This document shows positions 6,884 to 16,800 of a stretch of DNA of 64,000 nt, one piece after another. Positions within the stretch are counted from its first letter, which is position 1, and each line of letters starts with the position of its first letter. The notes beneath the pieces were generated by a model, which saw nothing but the letters and a program-made list of their open reading frames with translations, was not told where the DNA came from and did not search any database. This stretch comes from Mycolicibacterium helvum (lineage in GTDB: Bacteria; Actinomycetota; Actinomycetes; Mycobacteriales; Mycobacteriaceae), in contig NZ_AP022596.1 in NCBI RefSeq assembly GCF_010731895.1, positions 4,898,001-4,962,000 on the forward strand, given 5' to 3'. Both the position numbers and the translations under genes were made by a program.

Positions 6884-6958
6884 GGTCTCGTAGCTCAGTG
6901 GGAGAGCGTCCGCCTCACACGCGGAAGGTCGCTGGTTCGATACCAGCCGGGACCACCA
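6884..6958 (+). tRNA. tRNA-Val(CAC), integration site of the island
   Basis: GGTCTCG pairs with CGGGACC (one G-T pair). Anticodon loop CTCACAC lies between TCCGC and GCGGA, T arm GCTGGTTCGATACCAGC, CCA encoded. The gene is complete. Its 3' half is repeated at 13623, so an element integrated here and restored the tRNA on the left side. Confidence 0.95.
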
Positions 6959-6987
6959 GATAAAAGCCCAGATCAGAGGGCATATTT
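6912..6987 (+). repeat. attL: left direct repeat, within and beyond tRNA-Val(CAC)
   Basis: Aligns without gaps to 13623-13698 at a constant offset of 6711. The first 24 bases match exactly (GCCTCACACGCGG onward). Differences fall at 6936, 6950, 6957-6961, 6967, 6972 and 6978. Similarity continues about 30 bp past the tRNA end, implying a long core shared by attP and attB, and the mismatches imply an old integration. Confidence 0.85.
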
Positions 6988-7029
6988 TCAGCCAATCGGC
7001 ACCTCAAGAAACCACGATCGCGAGATCTA

Positions 7030-7051
7030 TAGGGCCAAAATGGGGCCAACC
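7030..7051 (+). repeat. Tandem 11-bp repeat near the left end (candidate integrase arm site)
   Basis: TAGGGCCAAAA followed by TGGGGCCAACC, period 11, located between attL and the 3' end of the integrase. The same pair occurs in the same orientation near the right end (13514-13535). Tyrosine integrases bind such arm-type repeats on both sides of attP, so these are the best candidates. Confidence 0.5.
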
Positions 7052-7052
7052 C

Positions 7053-8049
7053 TCAGGGGTGATCGACCTGGCGGTCGTCGAGCGCATCGAGAGCCGACGC
7101 CACGTCGTCGAGTTCGTCGTCGTAGAGATCGGCGTAGGTGTGCCGCAGATCGTGCACGCGCAGCGTGGGCCGGCCGAGTTCGGCGATCGAGTCGTACCAG
7201 TGCACCGAGCGCTTCCAGTTCTCCAGGCCCAGCCGCGAACCCTTCGGTGAGGTGATCGCCGGTTCGCCCGGGCGCCGACCTGCGAGACGCTGCTCCAGGA
7301 TCGGCACGACGCGTTGGGGGATCGGGATCGAGTGACGGCCGGCGGCTGATTTCGGATTGCCCTCGACGAGCTTGCCGCCGACCTGGGTGATCGAACGCCG
7401 GACGCGAATCCGGCGCGCCGTGAGGTCGACATCCTCGACGTTGAGACCGGTCAATTCGCCGAACCGCAGCCCGGTGTAGGCGAGCAGCGAAACGATGTCA
7501 CCGTTGTCGCCACAGATCTGTGTGAGTGCAGCGACCTCGGGGGCAGTGAGATAGGTGTGCGTTGTCTGGCGCATTGGCGGAAACTTGGTGCGCGCAGCGG
7601 GATTTCGGCCGAGAAGTTGCCCGTCGTCGGCGGCATGGTGCGGGCACATCTTGAGCACCGAGTGATACCAGCGCAGCGTGCGGGGGCTCAGGCCGTCGGC
7701 AGCCATCTCGTTGACCCACTTCTGAATCGACTGGTGATCGATCTTGTTGACCTGCCATCCGCCGAATCGCGGTTGCAGCCAGGCGCCAGATATCTTCATA
7801 TCCCCGCCGCACCTTGGGACTCAGGTCGAGCCGGGACGGAAGCCACGCTGCATAGACCTCTGCCAAGGTGATCCGCCCGGCCCGCGGGTCGACGACATCT
7901 CCGGCCGCGGTCTTGGTGACAATGGCCGCTTCGAAGATGCGTGCCTCGCGTTGGGTCTTGAAGGTCTTTCGGCGTTTCGACCGGTCAGGCAGTCGCCATT
8001 CGACGTCGAATCGGGGGCCGAGGCGGGTTTCGCGGCGAATGATAGCCAT
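7053..8049 (-). pseudogene. Tyrosine integrase, broken by a frameshift and an internal deletion
   Basis: The N-terminal part (from 8049, MAIIRRETRLGPRFDVEW, arm/AP2-like region) runs to RRGYEDIWRL. The core-binding and catalytic parts (QPRFGGWQVNKIDHQS onward) lie in another frame, so there is a +1 shift near 7770-7800. The catalytic domain has the first Arg in LLAYTGLRFGEL and box II as VHDLRHT. Directly after this comes YADLYDDELDDVASALD, which in L5-like integrases is the segment around the catalytic Tyr, normally some 30-35 residues further on. The region with the conserved GH motif is therefore deleted. The enzyme should be dead, fixing the island in place. Confidence 0.85.
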
Positions 8050-8239
8050 CAGTTACTCCATCAACAGGGCTGTGCTGCATAGTATTTCACCCCATGCCGA
8101 CAGAAATCGGTGTGCCGCAGCCCGCTGTGGATGATCGGGCTCCTGTGCATGCGCGAGGCCCGGCGCGAGGCCTAGACGGTTCTGCGAAGCGTCGCGGGTG
8201 ATCTCCGGGTGGACAACACGACCGTCCAAACCTCCTGAG

Positions 8240-11200
8240 TCATTCGGTCGGTTCGGTCGCAGCGACTACCGCTGCCGGATCCACCTTCGCGAGTGCCGGC
8301 AGTGGGATGAACCACGGCACACCCGACCACGCTCTAGCGATTGCAGCACGCCCAATGACTTCGTGGCCCGTCTCGGCAAGAAGAGCGCCAACCTCAGCGA
8401 GTTCGCGACTAGCAGGAATTGCGGCGAGAAGGTCGAGAGAACGATCTGTGTGGCCGGCAGTGATTGCCGCTTCGGCGATGATCGGGAGAGCTGCCGTCCG
8501 CTGCGCGGGATCTGGGATTGCGTTTACGCAGGCTTGCGCATGGTCGAGATGACCACTACGTGCTAGTGCAGACGCGACGGTCAGGTAGGCCGAAGCAACG
8601 TCCGTAGGACTAGTGACGCTGCGCACTAGACGATTGGCCAGGTCGGGATCAGATGCAGCCACGCCGGCAGCCATCGCGGTGATGGCACCAGGTCGCTTTC
8701 CTCTGGGAGCGGAACGAATAAGGCTCTCAGCGCGTTGGTGGTCCCCAATACGAGCCAGGGCGGCAACAGCAGCTATCAGCGCCCCGGAGTACTCGATATC
8801 ACGTATGCGTGAATGAGCGAGGGACAGCGCCTCGTCCATGATTCGGCGCGCCTGTTGAAAATCTCCCTCGGCAGCACACTCCTGTGCGATGCTGGCCAGC
8901 GCCGCGACACGAAGAGGTCTGTCGGAGATTCTATTTGCCGTCCTTCGAGCACGTTTCGACTTGCCTCCCTTCGCCAATGCAGCCATTACTACGGACATCC
9001 GCTGAATGGACGCATCTGGATCGTCGTACGTAACGTCCAGCTCGGCCGCGAATTTAGCCGCTCTCGGACGGCCCGCCTCCGCTAGAACCGCCACTAAATC
9101 CGACCGCGCTTCAGAACGTAGGTCGCCGTCGCTCATCAGTAGCAGCGTGCCAACCGCTCTGATGACCCTCCCGTGCCGGCCATACCCGATACTGACTGCG
9201 CTGAGCGTCTTCTCCCAGAGGATGTCGTCGTCTATCTCGGTGAGGCAAGATCTGGCCTTGCGAAACATTCCGTTGGCGGCTAATTCTCGTATGACAGCCA
9301 ACCAGCCCTCGCCGCGCTGAGGACCGCTTCTGACGTTACGAATCATCGCTATTGCTTGTTCAACGCGTCCCGCTCGGACCAACGCTGTGCACACGGCAAT
9401 TCGCTCCGCGGTCCGCTCTGTATCTGAGAACCCGCGAATGACCTGCTCGGCGCGTTCAAGATCACCGCTTCGGGTTAACTGAGTAGCTACGGCCGCCAAT
9501 GCAGCTCGGCGTAACCCATCGTTAGTAAGGGCATTCGCCGCACGCTCCGCCATCAGAACTGAGCCAGATTGGGCATGGGCAACAGCCACTCTAGTCAACA
9601 ATGCTGCCCGAACGTCGTCGAGATCCACACCTTCACACAATGATTCGGCAGACTCACACTGGCCAATCTCAAGTAGCGCAGAGACAATTACCGCCAACAT
9701 TTTGGCCTTCTCAGAAGCGTCTGTCGTACTTGTCGCATCGGCGTTCGCCGCATCAATGGCTTGTCGGTACTTGACGACATCCCCGGATTTTGCGAGAGCA
9801 ACGGCGGCAGTGCATTTCGCAATAACTCGGCCGTAGGGATCGCGGATTGCGAGCTCGGATGCCTCGTCGACAACTTTCGCGACCGAGGAGCGCGACTCAG
9901 TGTCGGCCATTGCGTGGGCAACGACATTCATAGCGGCTGCTCGACCACAGTGATTGGTTATCTTGCGAACGAGGTCCACAGCTATGGCTGGTTGACCGGC
10001 TTTCACTGTCTCCACCGCGACAATCAGGAGGGCCCGGGCTCCGCTCCCCGTCAATTCACCGATCGCGTCGGCAACTTGGCGATGCCATGCGAGAGGCGTC
10101 GTCTGGCTCATCATGAGCGACGGCAATTCGTACGGCAGTGGTCGCACCGATCCCGGTGTCGCCCCTATGATTTCCCCGATCCGCCGCGCTGTTGCGAGGT
10201 CACCAGCGCGCGTAAGCGCCTCCGCCAACCCTGCGAGCAGGTCAATACGTCTTGGATCAGAGTCGGAGATCAAGGAGGCTAATAGCTCGATCCAGTCAAA
10301 GCGTCCTGCGTCCGCCAGAGCTTGTGCTGCAGCGACGAGCGCGCTAACCCGACCTTGCTGCTTCTTGTCGATCCTGAAAAGCGCCGAGTTGAGCTGTGCC
10401 GCTGCGCCGTCTGTCGGGATGGCCGTCGTGGCCGTGACCTCGATTAGTGTTCGCATGCGCCAATGGTCGTCGGGAACTATCGCCACGACGCGACCAGCGA
10501 GCTCGGAGTCGCCGATTTTCGCCAAGGCGAAAGCAACTCGCGCATAGATTTTCGACCTAGAGTCGTTGGTAACCCGGCTCCCCAGATAGACCGCGGTCTG
10601 ACCATCGCCGAGTTCGGCAATCGCCGCGGCAGCCATCGCTAGGTCTTCGCTGTAGTCGGTGTATCTTGGGTCCGCGATAGCGACTGCTTCCATGGCTGCC
10701 CGTCCACAACGCGCGCGGTCGCCCATCGATCCGAACTCCGCTGCCAGCTCAGCCAACGCGCCAGCTCTGCGATTTTTGTCGATGATATTGGACGTTAATG
10801 CGATGGCGTAATCGGACAGTTCGGCCGCGCTATCCCGAGAATCACCGCGAACCATTGCCGCCGCAACGCGTGACAGAGCCGTCGCTCGGAGGCGGGCGTC
10901 GGAGACGTTCTTCAAAACATCCAGGGCTGAATTCGCTTCTGACAACTCGGAAAGCGCGGCCGCGACCGTTATGTACGCCCCATCGTCGCCTCGCGCCTGA
11001 GCAGCTGCCATTGCCCGGTGAAGTTGTCCTTGTTGCACCCAAGCTGTTAGCAAGAGCTCGGGTATAACTGTGCCTCGAGATGACACGGCATCACGGTGTC
11101 GCGCAAGAACGCAAATTCTCGCCAAGTCGGGGCAGGGTTGACGCGCGAGATAATCAATGGCGCCTGTCAGTTCTAGCATCGATGCGGCATCACCGCCCGT

Positions 11201-12289
11201 CATGAGATATAGGCGCTTATGGCGGTCATCATCAGAGGCGAAAAGATACACATCGTCGCCTCGGCCGGCGTTCTTCAGGACGCGGGGATAGTCGAGAAGC
11301 AAGTACACGGGACTAGAGTCAGGCCAGCGCTTCTCGACGTAACTCTTAGCCCATGAATGAATGCGATCCCGGTAATCCGCAACCCGGGGCGCAAGCTGCA
11401 GCTCAGCTTGAGTGAGCAGTTGGTCGTGCGCAAGAACATAGCGGTCTCCGAGCCCTCCTTGAAAAGAGGCTCCGCGTTGTGCCGTCAACAGTCGGCCAGC
11501 CTCGCCTGCCAAGGCGGCAGTGATGTCAGGCTTAACTCGGGACGTCAACTCGGACAGATCTGCGCAGCTGAGTCCACCCTGAGCGGCAACGATAAACCCC
11601 ACCACGTCTCGGAGCAGTGGGTCTTGCAGCGCCCGCTGTAACTCATCTTCGGCACGACGCCCGATCCCGCGAGCATGCGGCGACGGAGGTAGAGGTACTG
11701 AATGCCACTCGAACAGTGGATGCTCGGGTTGAAGCCTCTCCCGGACGAGAGGCGCGCGTCTGCTCGAAATGATAATTCGCAGCGCGGGGTGCGGCCGCAT
11801 CGGTAATTGCGATCCAATACTCGGGGAGCCATCGTCTTCGTCTAAGCCGTCGACGATAAGAGCGATCCGACGCCCTTTCCGCTGAGCCAGTTCACATGCA
11901 GTCTCAAGGAGTCTGCGCCTCAGGTCGTTCAACGCCGGCCCGGTCCAGTCGTTTGGCAATTGCTCACCGGTTATGACAGCTAATTGGGGAACGATCTTGA
12001 AGTTGAACCCCGCTAGATCGCATTCTGTGGCTATTCCACGACGGACAAAAAAATAAGCTGTGTCGACCTCGGAAGGGGGATCGAGCGCGAAAGTCGCCAG
12101 GAGACCCGTTTTGCCAGACCAGGGGTCGGCTTGCAGCCAGAGGTAAGGGCCGTCAGCCTCCAGGAATTGCCTCAGGTCAGCAAGCTCGGCTGACCGATCT
12201 AGTAACGGCCTAGGGGCAAGCTCTGAGACATATAGTCGATATCCCTGTTGCAACGTCGAAGCAGACGCCTGGGATTCGCCGAAATGCAC
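8240..12289 (-). CDS. Large STAND-type P-loop NTPase with C-terminal helical repeats
   Basis: 1349 residues from the GTG at 12289. Order: short N-terminal segment; NTPase with Walker A ADPWSGKT (54-61, where the first Gly of GxxxxGKT is Ala), Walker B IALIVDGLDEDD (142-153) and RIIISSRR (171-178); a middle region to about 370; then about 900 residues of short alpha-helical repeats (A.ALA..GD...A pattern, for example ALTRAGDLATARRI, TQLTRSGDLERAEQVI), resembling TPR/HEAT solenoids. This is the architecture of bacterial NLR/Avs-like STAND proteins, in which the repeats sense a trigger and the NTPase oligomerises. No effector domain is visible in this frame. The frame is open a further 40 codons upstream of the GTG without any start codon, and the upstream small gene ends at a slippery heptamer, so the true N-terminus may come from that gene. 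Function in defence is inferred, not shown. Confidence 0.8.
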   Translation of the reverse strand: MHFGESQASASTLQQGYRLYVSELAPRPLLDRSAELADLRQFLEADGPYLWLQADPWSGKTGLLATFALDPPSEVDTAYFFVRRGIATECDLAGFNFKIVPQLAVITGEQLPNDWTGPALNDLRRRLLETACELAQRKGRRIALIVDGLDEDDGSPSIGSQLPMRPHPALRIIISSRRAPLVRERLQPEHPLFEWHSVPLPPSPHARGIGRRAEDELQRALQDPLLRDVVGFIVAAQGGLSCADLSELTSRVKPDITAALAGEAGRLLTAQRGASFQGGLGDRYVLAHDQLLTQAELQLAPRVADYRDRIHSWAKSYVEKRWPDSSPVYLLLDYPRVLKNAGRGDDVYLFASDDDRHKRLYLMTGGDAASMLELTGAIDYLARQPCPDLARICVLARHRDAVSSRGTVIPELLLTAWVQQGQLHRAMAAAQARGDDGAYITVAAALSELSEANSALDVLKNVSDARLRATALSRVAAAMVRGDSRDSAAELSDYAIALTSNIIDKNRRAGALAELAAEFGSMGDRARCGRAAMEAVAIADPRYTDYSEDLAMAAAAIAELGDGQTAVYLGSRVTNDSRSKIYARVAFALAKIGDSELAGRVVAIVPDDHWRMRTLIEVTATTAIPTDGAAAQLNSALFRIDKKQQGRVSALVAAAQALADAGRFDWIELLASLISDSDPRRIDLLAGLAEALTRAGDLATARRIGEIIGATPGSVRPLPYELPSLMMSQTTPLAWHRQVADAIGELTGSGARALLIVAVETVKAGQPAIAVDLVRKITNHCGRAAAMNVVAHAMADTESRSSVAKVVDEASELAIRDPYGRVIAKCTAAVALAKSGDVVKYRQAIDAANADATSTTDASEKAKMLAVIVSALLEIGQCESAESLCEGVDLDDVRAALLTRVAVAHAQSGSVLMAERAANALTNDGLRRAALAAVATQLTRSGDLERAEQVIRGFSDTERTAERIAVCTALVRAGRVEQAIAMIRNVRSGPQRGEGWLAVIRELAANGMFRKARSCLTEIDDDILWEKTLSAVSIGYGRHGRVIRAVGTLLLMSDGDLRSEARSDLVAVLAEAGRPRAAKFAAELDVTYDDPDASIQRMSVVMAALAKGGKSKRARRTANRISDRPLRVAALASIAQECAAEGDFQQARRIMDEALSLAHSRIRDIEYSGALIAAVAALARIGDHQRAESLIRSAPRGKRPGAITAMAAGVAASDPDLANRLVRSVTSPTDVASAYLTVASALARSGHLDHAQACVNAIPDPAQRTAALPIIAEAAITAGHTDRSLDLLAAIPASRELAEVGALLAETGHEVIGRAAIARAWSGVPWFIPLPALAKVDPAAVVAATEPTE

Positions 12290-12415
12290 ATGCTCCGCGC
12301 GAAGCTCCGTGACGACGTTGTCGCGGCCAGCGACAAATAAATCTCTCCCGGTAGAAACATTCTCAATACGCGCGGCGAAACCGGGGGCTGGAGTCGCGCC
12401 TACTAAGGGTTTGGG
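12290..12415 (-). other. Candidate -1 frameshift site (CCCAAAC) and hidden coding linker
   Basis: On the minus strand the upstream gene ends CGC CCA AAC CCT TAG. The heptamer C-CCA-AAC (12409-12415) fits the X-XXY-YYZ slip pattern, two codons before the stop. After a -1 slip, reading continues as CCC TTA GTA and stays open for 40 codons into the STAND frame, with no ATG, GTG or TTG until 12289. The linker encodes NVSTGRDLFVAGRDNVV, a Gly-Arg-Asp repeat-like segment that reads like protein rather than chance. An 8-nt spacer precedes the GC-rich stretch GGCGCG, which can pair with downstream CGCC or CGCGC. A plain sequencing or evolutionary indel would look the same. Confidence 0.5.
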
Positions 12416-12861
12416 CGTTGCTGCTCGCCTGCGCGTATACCACTGATGTTTACAACACGTGCTTCTATGTCGCTGGCCCTGACGCCGATCGCGCCTGCGC
12501 CGGCGTCTACGTCGTGGACATTTAGTAATTCGGTACTAATTCTGTCTAGGTCGACACCAACGGCGGTCGCCGCGCTCGGTGCATGAATTCGGATCGCCTC
12601 TAAAAGGTAACTGGAGGCGGCGAGCAGTGCGGCATCTCCTTCCGCGCCAGCGTCTGTCAGTATTTCTTTAAGAGCTGCTCGCTGGACCTCCGAGTCAGGT
12701 TTGGCTTCAATGGCTTTGGTGTCAACCTGCGAATATCTCGCCTCTGATAGTAGTTCCTTAACTCTGCCGTAGGCATCCTTTATGGCTTCGGCGACGGTGT
12801 CTGTCAGCCCAGCCGATGCTCCCGCGGCCAGTGCCGCGACGACTATCGAAACGGGGTCCAT
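12403..12861 (-). CDS. Small STAND-associated protein (possible adaptor or death-like domain)
   Basis: 152 residues from ATG 12861, preceded by GGAAGG six bases upstream; a TTG five codons earlier is less likely. The start MDPVSIVVAALAAGASAGLTDT is a hydrophobic, Ala-rich helix followed by AEAIKDAYGRVKELLSEA. From memory this is a recurrent N-terminal module in actinobacterial proteins encoded next to, or fused to, NLR-like NTPases. The centre is helical. The end, GVRASDIEARVVNISGIRAG, has a beta-strand/Gly periodicity like short amyloid or beta-solenoid signalling motifs. It sits directly upstream of the STAND gene on the same strand and may be translated as its N-terminus by -1 slippage. 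The function assignment is inference. Confidence 0.65.
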   Translation of the reverse strand: MDPVSIVVAALAAGASAGLTDTVAEAIKDAYGRVKELLSEARYSQVDTKAIEAKPDSEVQRAALKEILTDAGAEGDAALLAASSYLLEAIRIHAPSAATAVGVDLDRISTELLNVHDVDAGAGAIGVRASDIEARVVNISGIRAGEQQRPNP

Positions 12862-13151
12862 AGTGGCGCCTTCCAACTTGAAGCCCGCAAAGGCGCAGGC
12901 GACTTTGCAGTCACTCTAATGGTGACCATTGACCACGCGTCAGATTGACTAAGGCACCCGCGCGTGGCGAGTCGCCTCCGCGCCTGCTAATCGCGGGCGC
13001 CACCTTTCTGGACGAGTGGGGCACGAATTCCGCAAGTAAGGCTGGACCGGCCACGCTGGATGACGTGGCCTGCCCCACTGACTTTTGATCAACGGGTTGG
13101 GGGTCCGAGACTGTGTGGCAGCGGAAGTCCGGACGGCCGGAAGATGGCCAG

Positions 13152-13174
13152 ATTTGGGAACAAATTTGGGAACA
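13152..13174 (+). repeat. Two direct copies of ATTTGGGAACA
   Basis: Exact 11-base copies at 13152-13162 and 13164-13174, period 12, about one helical turn apart. They lie in the non-coding right part of the island, 450 bp from attR, and may be protein-binding sites (integrase, excisionase or regulator). Confidence 0.4.
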
Positions 13175-13513
13175 CAACGCTGCGAAACCCCCAAAAGCAT
13201 GGGACCCAACGGTACTGAGTGGACTTACACAACGGACTGACCAGCTCTTTGGGATTCGGCGTGATGCCGAAAATGCCCGGTGCCTGGCTCATAACCCAGA
13301 GGTTGCATGCTCGGATCCTGCCCTCGCTACCACCCAAAACGGCCGTCCTCGGCAACGCGATCGAAGCAGGACATGGTCATAGGGCTCGGTGGCACCGCTT
13401 TGGAGCCCGGGCATGGTGGCGTTGACGGCAGGCCAACGAGTCGTTCTTTGAGCCCTAAGCCCGACCTCCCGCTTGGTGTCCGGATACTCGGGGTCGAATT
13501 GAGCCCGAATTCA

Positions 13514-13535
13514 TAGGGCCAAAATAGGGCCAAAC
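13514..13535 (+). repeat. Tandem 11-bp repeat near the right end (candidate integrase arm site)
   Basis: TAGGGCCAAAA then TAGGGCCAAAC, period 11. The 20-base string TAGGGCCAAAATRGGGCCAA is common to this site and 7030-7049 with one difference. In a circular form the two sites would flank the attP core. Confidence 0.5.
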
Positions 13536-13622
13536 TTTCAGACCAAGTGCTCCAGAGGGTCCAATCCGGCCCATCCGCAAGCCTCTGACCAGTGCAAACA
13601 GAAAGTTAGCGGGTCTAAGTCA

Positions 13623-13698
13623 GCCTCACACGCGGAAGGTCGCTGGCTCGATACCAGCCGAGACCACAGCGCAAAAGTCCAGTTCAGAGAGCATATTT
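13623..13698 (+). repeat. attR: right direct repeat of the tRNA-Val 3' half
   Basis: Carries the anticodon arm and T arm of tRNA-Val(CAC) and about 30 bp beyond, but no 5' half, so it cannot be a tRNA gene. The T loop has one change (GGCTCGATACC). It marks the right boundary of the island. Confidence 0.85.
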
Positions 13699-15408: not shown

Positions 15409-16491
15409 TCAAGCGGCTTGAGGGTTGGCGTTGGGTTCGGCGTGGAGTTTTTCAAGGGTGCGGTAGAGATGGCGCGCGAGGTAGCGCTTGAGGCAGCGCC
15501 GGATCTCTTTGGTGGTGCGTCCTTCTGCGCGACGTCGTTCGACGTAGGCCTTGGTGTCGGGGTCGTGGGTCATCCGGACGATGACAGCCATGTGCAGGGC
15601 ACGGTTGAGCCGCCTGTCGCCGCCGCGGTTGAGTCGGTGGCGCACGGTGTTTCCGGAGGATGCGGGGATCGGGTTGACGCCGGCCAAAGCGGCGAACGCC
15701 GCTTCGGAACGGACCCGGCCGGCGTGCGACCAGGCGGTGTAGACGACCGCGACGGTGACTGGGCCGATGCCGGTTTTGTCCAGCAAGACAGCGGCCTTGC
15801 TGGCGTGAATGAGATCAATCATGTTCTTGTAATTGGTCGCGAGTTGCTCGGTGAGATCAACCACGCGCTTGGCCAGCCGTACTGCCTCGGCGCGTGCAGT
15901 AACGGTGACAAGGTCTTCGACTCGGGTGCGCCAGCGGGCGACCTCACTAATTTGACTGGCGGTCAGCGGCTTACGCGCATCAACACCCAGGGTGGCCACA
16001 CGCAACAACGCAGTGAGCGCGTTGACAGTCGCGGTGCGTTCGGTCGTCATGTGCTCACGGGCCGTGACAAGAATGCGCAATGCAGCTCGGATGCCGTCGT
16101 CACTTCGGGGACGGCGCAGCTGCTCAGGCTCAAGGGACAACACCGATGCCGCGATCCTGCGGGCATCGAAGAGGTCTGATTTGCCAGTCCCGCGATGGGC
16201 TCGTGCGTTCATCGCAGCCGCCTCCACGACTTCATAGCCAGCTCGCTTGGCTGCCGAAGCCAGGTGGGCTCCGTAGCTGGCGATGCCTTCAATGACCCAC
16301 AGGGTGGCCAATTCGCCTTCGGTGCGCCGCGCGGCCCAGGCGATGGCCCGATCCAGGCCGGCACCGGTGGCTGGAAACTGCTCACTGGCGACCAGCTCGC
16401 CAGTGGCCGCTACCAATACGGCCAGGGTGTGAGTGCGGGCGTGGGTGTCCACTCCGATGACGAACGGGTGGTTGTGCGCAACGATGGTCAT
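15409..16491 (-). CDS. IS110-family transposase (DEDD recombinase)
   Basis: 360 residues from ATG 16491; a longer frame upstream is not needed and lies in the presumed bridge-RNA region. The N-terminal RuvC-like DEDD domain begins VIGVDTHARTHTLAVL, with WVIEGIASYGAHL and KSDLFDARRIA. The C-terminal Transposase_20 region has DKTGIGPVTVAVVYTAW and the serine motif AALAGVNPIPASSGNTVRHR. Both halves are complete and in frame, so the element may be active. IS110 enzymes recombine donor and target guided by a bridge RNA made from the element itself. Confidence 0.9.
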   Translation of the reverse strand: MTIVAHNHPFVIGVDTHARTHTLAVLVAATGELVASEQFPATGAGLDRAIAWAARRTEGELATLWVIEGIASYGAHLASAAKRAGYEVVEAAAMNARAHRGTGKSDLFDARRIAASVLSLEPEQLRRPRSDDGIRAALRILVTAREHMTTERTATVNALTALLRVATLGVDARKPLTASQISEVARWRTRVEDLVTVTARAEAVRLAKRVVDLTEQLATNYKNMIDLIHASKAAVLLDKTGIGPVTVAVVYTAWSHAGRVRSEAAFAALAGVNPIPASSGNTVRHRLNRGGDRRLNRALHMAVIVRMTHDPDTKAYVERRRAEGRTTKEIRRCLKRYLARHLYRTLEKLHAEPNANPQAA

Positions 16492-16800
16492 GGTGGTGGG
16501 ATTCCTTCCATACGCGGGACAGATCCGGCCGCCAAAACGGCCGGCGCCGGCCTGGATGGAAGTCACGTCGGGGCAGCACTGTGATGAGCCACGATCCGCC
16601 CCTGGGGCGGGGACGGGCAGTCTTCTGATCAAGTCACCGAGGTGGAGCCGGGTCAGCGTCGGCCGTCCGCCCCTGCGCTGGACAAGTCCACCGAAACGCA
16701 CCCAACGGGGCGAATGATTGTAAGAGTCACAACCCAAGGCGAGGCGACCGCCGCTAACCCTGCCAGCCAGTCCCAGACCAGCCACTCGAAGACTCACAGT
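16492..16800 (-). ncRNA. Candidate bridge-RNA region of the IS110 element
   Basis: The 300 bp upstream of the transposase contain no convincing gene but several self-complementary stretches, for example CCGCCCC-T-GGGGCGG (16596-16610) and GGCCG/CGGCC near 16530-16545. In the IS110 group the non-coding end upstream of the transposase encodes the bridge RNA. Folding and comparison with other copies are needed to place the loops. The remaining 16801-16985 is the leader of the PAS-GGDEF gene. Confidence 0.35.

Follow-up and report, generated by a model that had tools for sequence, protein, structure and literature searches.

Does the junction between a small adaptor gene and a large nucleoside triphosphatase (NTPase) gene in Mycolicibacterium helvum separate two genes, or is it a place where ribosomes change frame? 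The locus lies on the minus strand of a 64,000-nt stretch of a complete 6.40-Mb genome (contig NZ_AP022596.1, positions 4,898,001 to 4,962,000), hereafter the window. A sequence-only reading had pointed to an exact heptamer, C_CCA_AAC, lying in frame two codons before the stop of a 152-aa adaptor, and to about 40 start-less codons leading in the -1 frame into a 1349-aa NTPase. It proposed that a -1 slip yields a fusion protein beside the free adaptor. The heptamer is indeed present on the minus strand (12415-12409), and the start-less stretch (12402-12290) and both lengths are confirmed. From comparison with relatives, we conclude that the adaptor and the STAND NTPase probably form one expression unit read via -1 programmed ribosomal frameshifting, with the slip placed on a neighboring codon. 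For the adaptor family as a whole, -1 frameshifting is highly likely; for the window copy, a working frameshift is likely.

On the minus strand, the junction reads ...CAA CGC CCA AAC CCT TAG TAG GCG CGA..., with the adaptor stop TAG at 12405-12403 (coordinates of all features are in Table 1). In a stop-to-stop listing, the adaptor frame terminates at 12403, whereas no stop interrupts the -1 frame between 12535 and 8240. The first ATG, GTG or TTG of the -1 frame past the junction is the GTG at 12289, 116 nt beyond the adaptor stop. Among 54 mechanically chosen open reading frames (ORFs) of the window, in-frame X_XXY_YYZ motifs occur at 40 of 19,046 codon positions, and two fall in the last 10 codons of an ORF. 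Because such motifs arise by chance at this rate, the heptamer alone is weak evidence. What exceeds chance is the junction conserved in relatives, not the heptamer itself.

To follow the junction in relatives, the two frames of the locus were searched separately, never joined. Eighty adaptor homologues of 105-220 aa were found at E <= 0.001 (query included). All of them stand alone and most share a common C-terminal end, although the length filter of this search would hide fusion proteins. A proline column at the C-terminus is invariant across 16 aligned full-length adaptors, and most of the 31 sequences in a larger alignment (A3) end in (N/H/D...)P followed by at most a few residues. Within the order, an adaptor profile matched 30 of 397 genomes (E <= 1e-6); within the class, 5 of 394 (E <= 1e-12); and within Nocardia, 74 of 150 (E <= 1e-6), some of these last being partial matches. 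Of 76 full-length-type loci fetched, seven were set aside: four in which the adaptor reads on in frame (L111, L116, L118, L119), two with a zero-frame stop far downstream (L112, L113), and L117. The remaining 69, window included, comprise 64 from the Nocardia search and five from the order search. Partial matches (L120-L128, five of which were inspected) were excluded from the counts. Dropping near-duplicates L074 and L088 left 62 non-redundant sites.

Beyond the adaptor stop, the -1 frame remains open for 150 codons or more in 62 of the 69 loci. In 60 of these 62, there is no ATG, GTG or TTG between the site and 30 nt past the stop, and the first start past the stop lies at a median of 72.5 nt and a maximum of 404 nt. 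Were starts as frequent as the codon usage of the downstream ORFs implies, the 1828 start-less codons would contain about 126 of them; by construction, though, each of these stretches stops where the first start appears. Two set-aside loci, L111 and L119, are natural single ORFs, in which the adaptor continues in frame into NTPase modules and the frameshift signal is not matched. By eye, these modules resemble kinds found in the -1 frame elsewhere (compare L045 and L046). Single in-frame homologues, which the sequence-only reading had set as its own test, thus exist. A few such ORFs would also be seen if one gene had been split by a frameshift mutation, pseudogenization or sequencing error. 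Yet 62 of the 69 loci share the -1 relation, and the homologues found, under a length filter that hides fusions, stand alone, mostly with a common end, which makes a broken gene a very remote prospect.

A putative slip site, C_CCN, is carried by 66 of the 69 loci and lies within 12 codons of the stop in 64; in L086 and L103 it is the 13th codon from the stop, in the context CAC CCC-N6-GCGCGG. Across the 62 non-redundant sites, the slip codon is CCT in 51, CCC in 10 and CCG in one, and the codon before it is CAC in 31, GAC in 27 and one of four others once each. With the window excluded, CCT makes up 50 of 61 site codons versus 9.1% of the proline codons elsewhere in the same genes (p about 1e-41). 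Elsewhere in these genes, C and T endings are balanced for His (54:52) and Asp (309:298), while the site by definition needs C. The CCT excess therefore points to selection on the RNA. In E. coli, C_CC.U slips as well as C_CC.C, and C_CCA and C_CCG hardly slip (PMC4066793). The family's preference for CCT and CCC matches this C_CC.N hierarchy.

These sites also bear on which codon slips in the window. Relatives mostly have [C/G]AC-CCT, and the aligned site in the window is AAC CCT TAG. The sequence-only reading had instead placed the slip on C_CCA_AAC and expected homologues to keep it. This is an exact in-frame heptamer, and a slip there or on C_CCT would yield the same product. However, at that place the relatives' junctions have nothing that corresponds to C_CCA_AAC, which starts two codons upstream of CCT; what they conserve is C_CCY, one codon downstream of the heptamer. 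Moreover, efficient E. coli A-type heptamers end in R (V_VV.A_AA.R; PMC4066793). We consider it unlikely that the heptamer is the true slip site.

Sequences flanking the site suggest stimulatory elements. GCGCGG occurs 6 nt past the slip codon in 33 of 62 loci, with variants in the rest, and a complementary downstream arm is present in most. At the expected offset, the arm duplex has a mean energy of -18.3 kcal/mol, versus -7.0 to -14.1 at 14 other offsets. When arms were permuted among loci, none of 5000 permutations was as low as observed (z -9.9; the permutation ignores relatedness). The distance between the arms is 35, 38, 41 or 44 nt in 52 of the 62 loci, i.e. it changes in whole-codon steps. 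In a 30-locus set with a single loop length (A6), six of seven stem pairs show changes on both sides, a result that none of 500 shuffles reached. Upstream, the commonest bases at -13 to -10 are G, G, A and G (69-79% each), and the best anti-Shine–Dalgarno (anti-SD) energy is <= -4 in 75.8% of the 62 loci. In dnaX-type frameshifting, an SD-like element and a hairpin stimulate the slip. In the adaptor family, the hairpin 6 nt downstream and the SD-like GGAG about 10 nt upstream would act likewise.

If ribosomes do slip, the linker beyond the stop should be translated in the -1 frame, and its substitutions look coding. In 17 disjoint homologous pairs, differences at -1-frame codon positions 1, 2 and 3 of the start-less linker number 88, 60 and 106 (p = 0.0018). 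The downstream ORFs give 302, 265 and 611 by the same measure, a pattern like that of the linker, which is weaker. The G+C content of the linker by codon position is 0.66, 0.64 and 0.77 (1828 codons). This pattern bears on a role other than frameshifting for the conserved RNA elements, namely in translational coupling or mRNA stability. Reinitiation could be influenced by a hairpin that spans the stop, and in L092 and L098 a GTG overlaps the adaptor stop, as coupling would have it. Starts up to 404 nt downstream, the coding-like linker and a slip codon constrained at synonymous positions argue the other way, and coupling or stability as the role of these elements is quite improbable. Both L092 and L098 retain the slip site and an altered yet complementary stem (GTGTG../..CACAC).

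As controls, we used 27 more divergent adaptor loci (L039 was left out, as its stored position is not the adaptor's, and L029 is not a clean adaptor ORF). Four have no downstream frame of 150 codons. Another four (L018, L020, L032 and L038; all from a different actinomycete family, f15) have C_CCY 7-8 codons before the stop and a -1 partner, with first starts at +62 to +140; three of these (L020, L032, L038) carry C_CCC_CCR. With C_CCT or C_CCC_CCR and a possible hairpin, this group is perhaps a second variant of the signal. In 18 of the other 19, a start lies between -1 and +25 nt relative to the stop, and its frame varies from locus to locus; L019, with its start at +116, is the exception. 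Among the 18, L043 carries a C_CCY codon too, and the status of L029 is uncertain. By eye, most loci with near starts end in a RHIM-like tail, GVQVGDxNxQxNxF. Thus the divergent, mostly RHIM-tailed pairs have a start near the stop and lack the frameshift signal. The Pfam RHIM model was weak or absent in five scanned proteins of the RHIM-tailed type or their partners, the best (L048) falling just under the cutoff; P0072 is above it. In L026 and further RHIM-tailed pairs, the downstream STAND ORF repeats a tail of this kind close to its start, an arrangement shared with BASS-type amyloid pairs.

A covariance model of the junction was built from the 30-locus set with the window excluded. Among 35 frameshift-type loci (including L049 and L050, which were part of the training set), it found the junction in 34 at E <= 0.29 and in 32 at E <= 0.022, missing L056. 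Against 36 loci whose type was different or uncertain, it matched the junctions of L079, L086, L103, L016 and L017, with E from 7.8e-7 to 7.6e-5; a single match in L024 had E 0.98. No match at E <= 1 came from the remaining RHIM-tailed loci, from the in-frame fusions (L111, L116, L118, L119) or from L087 and L102, which have no site. In the window, the best of 11 matches (12432-12359) falls exactly on the junction, with 18.7 bits; the next scores 13.4.

A number of observations weigh against frameshifting, at the level of the family and of the window copy. In the family, a covariation control with the partner slid by -2 gave four pairs and an equal number, eight, of double-changed cells; RNAalifold found no pair in the full alignment A5; and individual hairpin z-scores are modest (median -1.07 over 62 loci). 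An unanchored linker comparison, in which homology of the pairs is not ensured, was not significant (78/81/97, p = 0.29). Seven of the 69 loci lack an intact -1 partner (L051, L056, L079, L082, L084, L087 and L102), and four of these (L051, L056, L082 and L084) still have the site; L087 and L102 are without it, and L079 has CAT CCT in place of CAC CCT. The divergent C_CCY loci (L018, L020, L032, L038) gave no model match at E <= 1. Finally, C_CC.Y falls in the lower part of the E. coli ranking of slip-prone tetramers, whose frameshifting ranged from just 0.26 to 5.6% despite a strong pseudoknot (PMC4066793). For the window copy, the hairpin, with its 5-bp core in place, folds no better than shuffles (z = +0.82), and its own arms outdo just 21% of swapped pairings. 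No SD-like pairing was found among 8-mers starting at -17 to -8. The junction's model match has E = 0.11 in 64 kb, and at least seven other places in the genome score 19.8-25.3 bits (150 of 14,647 candidates scored). What identifies the window copy is thus its position and homology; its score does not stand out.

These weaknesses are what one would expect if the window held two separate genes, the NTPase being initiated at GTG 12289 or by reinitiation and the ancestral frameshift signal having decayed. The GGAG three bases upstream of that GTG fits such an account, as does a junction score that is not distinctive genome-wide. On the other hand, the window retains the slip tetramer, the 6-nt spacing and the stem core. 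Its linker is open and by eye contains a GRD motif like those of several relatives, and in the family nearby starts are absent from 60 of 62 loci. Two separate genes are thus improbable here, without being negligible. Of the sequence-only proposal, then, a free adaptor plus a -1 fusion is well supported by the relatives, through the -1 relation, start-less linker, slip site, spacer, hairpin and natural fusions; the stimulators of the window's own copy are weak.

Under frameshifting, most ribosomes would terminate after the 152-aa adaptor. In a fraction, tRNA-Pro on the CCT of C_CCT would shift by one base in the 5' direction and pair anew, with CCC. Slipped ribosomes would then cross the start-less linker and make an adaptor–linker–NTPase fusion of about 1540 aa. 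By analogy with effector-associated domain (EAD) systems, a minor, receptor-bound adaptor can probably nucleate the abundant free adaptor when the STAND module is triggered; the product ratio and this homotypic recruitment, like the slip, are what we infer.

The adaptor has a predicted fold of five helices followed by four strands (AlphaFold2 mean pLDDT 84.1). It matched no Pfam family at E <= 0.1, including the EAD and RHIM models, and comparison of its predicted structure with the PDB gave no clear match, so we filed it in neither the EAD nor the RHIM family. The NTPase matches Pfam NPHP3_N (E 2.4e-7) and PPR above cutoff and TPR_19 below cutoff. Residues 62-502 match part of the PADLOC STAND_TPR model (E 3.6e-75). 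In 197 other genomes of the genus, the NTPase frame found no match at E <= 1e-10, and two of these genomes carry the adaptor with a different partner (L016, L017). Ten downstream proteins were scanned with Pfam: three have NB-ARC above cutoff, two of about 230 aa have no match, and the others have AAA-type or TPR matches. The junction is conserved while the partner varies. As for a role in defence, the same ten gave weak PADLOC matches in two only, which counts against it. Since PADLOC recognizes well only the NTPase of the window, a defence function of the locus is suggested rather than established.

The proposed arrangement resembles several known systems in part. Like dnaX (bacterial -1 programmed frameshifting is reviewed in PMC5009743), it has an in-frame slip site, an upstream SD-like element, a hairpin a few nucleotides downstream and two products from one start. 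Unlike dnaX, which uses A_AAA_AAG, the adaptor family uses a single-tRNA tetramer, C_CCY, and frameshifting would yield the longer product, joining adaptor to receptor NTPase. Insertion sequences with Z_ZZN frameshifting likewise make a short and a transframe product from a slip-prone tetramer and a stimulator (PMC4066793), but the adaptor loci are cellular STAND genes with differing downstream modules, not transposase genes. In BASS/BELL amyloid NLR pairs of filamentous bacteria, a small helical effector gene is followed by an adjacent or overlapping NLR gene (PMC7889193). The layout here is similar, and the RHIM-tailed relatives resemble this type. The frameshift class differs in lacking a RHIM match (none in the window proteins at E <= 0.1 with Pfam), and recoding would join the proteins instead of, or besides, a shared motif. 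EAD systems have one adaptor copy fused to the NTPase N-terminus and others on effectors, from separate genes (PMC8195603, PMC7159879); here, a single gene would supply both copies by frameshifting. PADLOC STAND_TPR is described as fused to an Xre helix-turn-helix (HTH) domain beside a cas1-less I-E system, unlike this locus, in which Pfam found no HTH in P0001 or P0002.

Table 1. Features of the frameshift locus and its surroundings (window coordinates)
Feature	Positions	Strand	Remark
Adaptor gene, 152 aa, candidate free product	12403..12861	-	homologues mostly share the end point
Heptamer C_CCA_AAC	12409..12415	-	in frame, two codons ahead of stop; not conserved in relatives
Conserved slip tetramer C_CCT (last base of AAC + CCT)	12406..12409	-	immediately 5' of stop TAG; aligns with relatives' C_CCY
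5' arm GCGCG of putative stimulatory hairpin	12395..12399	-	6 nt past CCT
3' arm CGCGC of hairpin core	12370..12374	-	RNAfold structure
-1-frame linker, ~40 codons, without ATG/GTG/TTG	12290..12402	-	
STAND-like NTPase with C-terminal repeats, 1349 codons from first GTG	8240..12289	-	
NTPase domain (Pfam NPHP3_N match)	11759..12166	-	
Left direct repeat in/after tRNA-Val, attachment-site-like	6908..6987	+	
Right direct repeat	13619..13698	+	86% identical over 80 nt

The two direct repeats probably bound a mobile element of about 6.7 kb (within 6884-13698), and the frameshift locus lies on it. Also inside is a Phage_integrase ORF (7799-7053). An ORF upstream of it (8049-7498), overlapping it in a different frame, matches Arm-DNA-bind below threshold only; the integrase may be split or decayed. 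Just outside the element is a transposase-like ORF (15409-16797), possibly IS110-like.

Among the literature matches listed, no paper dealt with frameshifting in STAND/NLR or related defence genes; subscription journals were mostly outside the scope of this search, which is not proof of novelty. The main text of the GeneTack survey does not mention Nocardia or NB-ARC (PMC3711429). More speculatively, adaptor, C_CCT and hairpin could form a portable recoding cassette that evolution has joined to many STAND/NLR-like modules, with the ratio of products setting the receptor-to-free-adaptor stoichiometry of an immune complex. Since slipping hinges on tRNA-Pro and on termination, such a switch could itself sense translation stress, e.g. 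phage takeover. We regard this whole reading as a long shot. If frameshifting holds, gene callers would truncate such receptors, much as the window's NTPase appears in the protein collection (P0082) with 1022 aa and an internal start. The locus would offer a tractable system for single-tRNA C_CCY slippage and for receptor-to-adaptor stoichiometry, and a gene family common in Nocardia would make both a free adaptor and an adaptor–receptor fusion from one start by -1 frameshifting.
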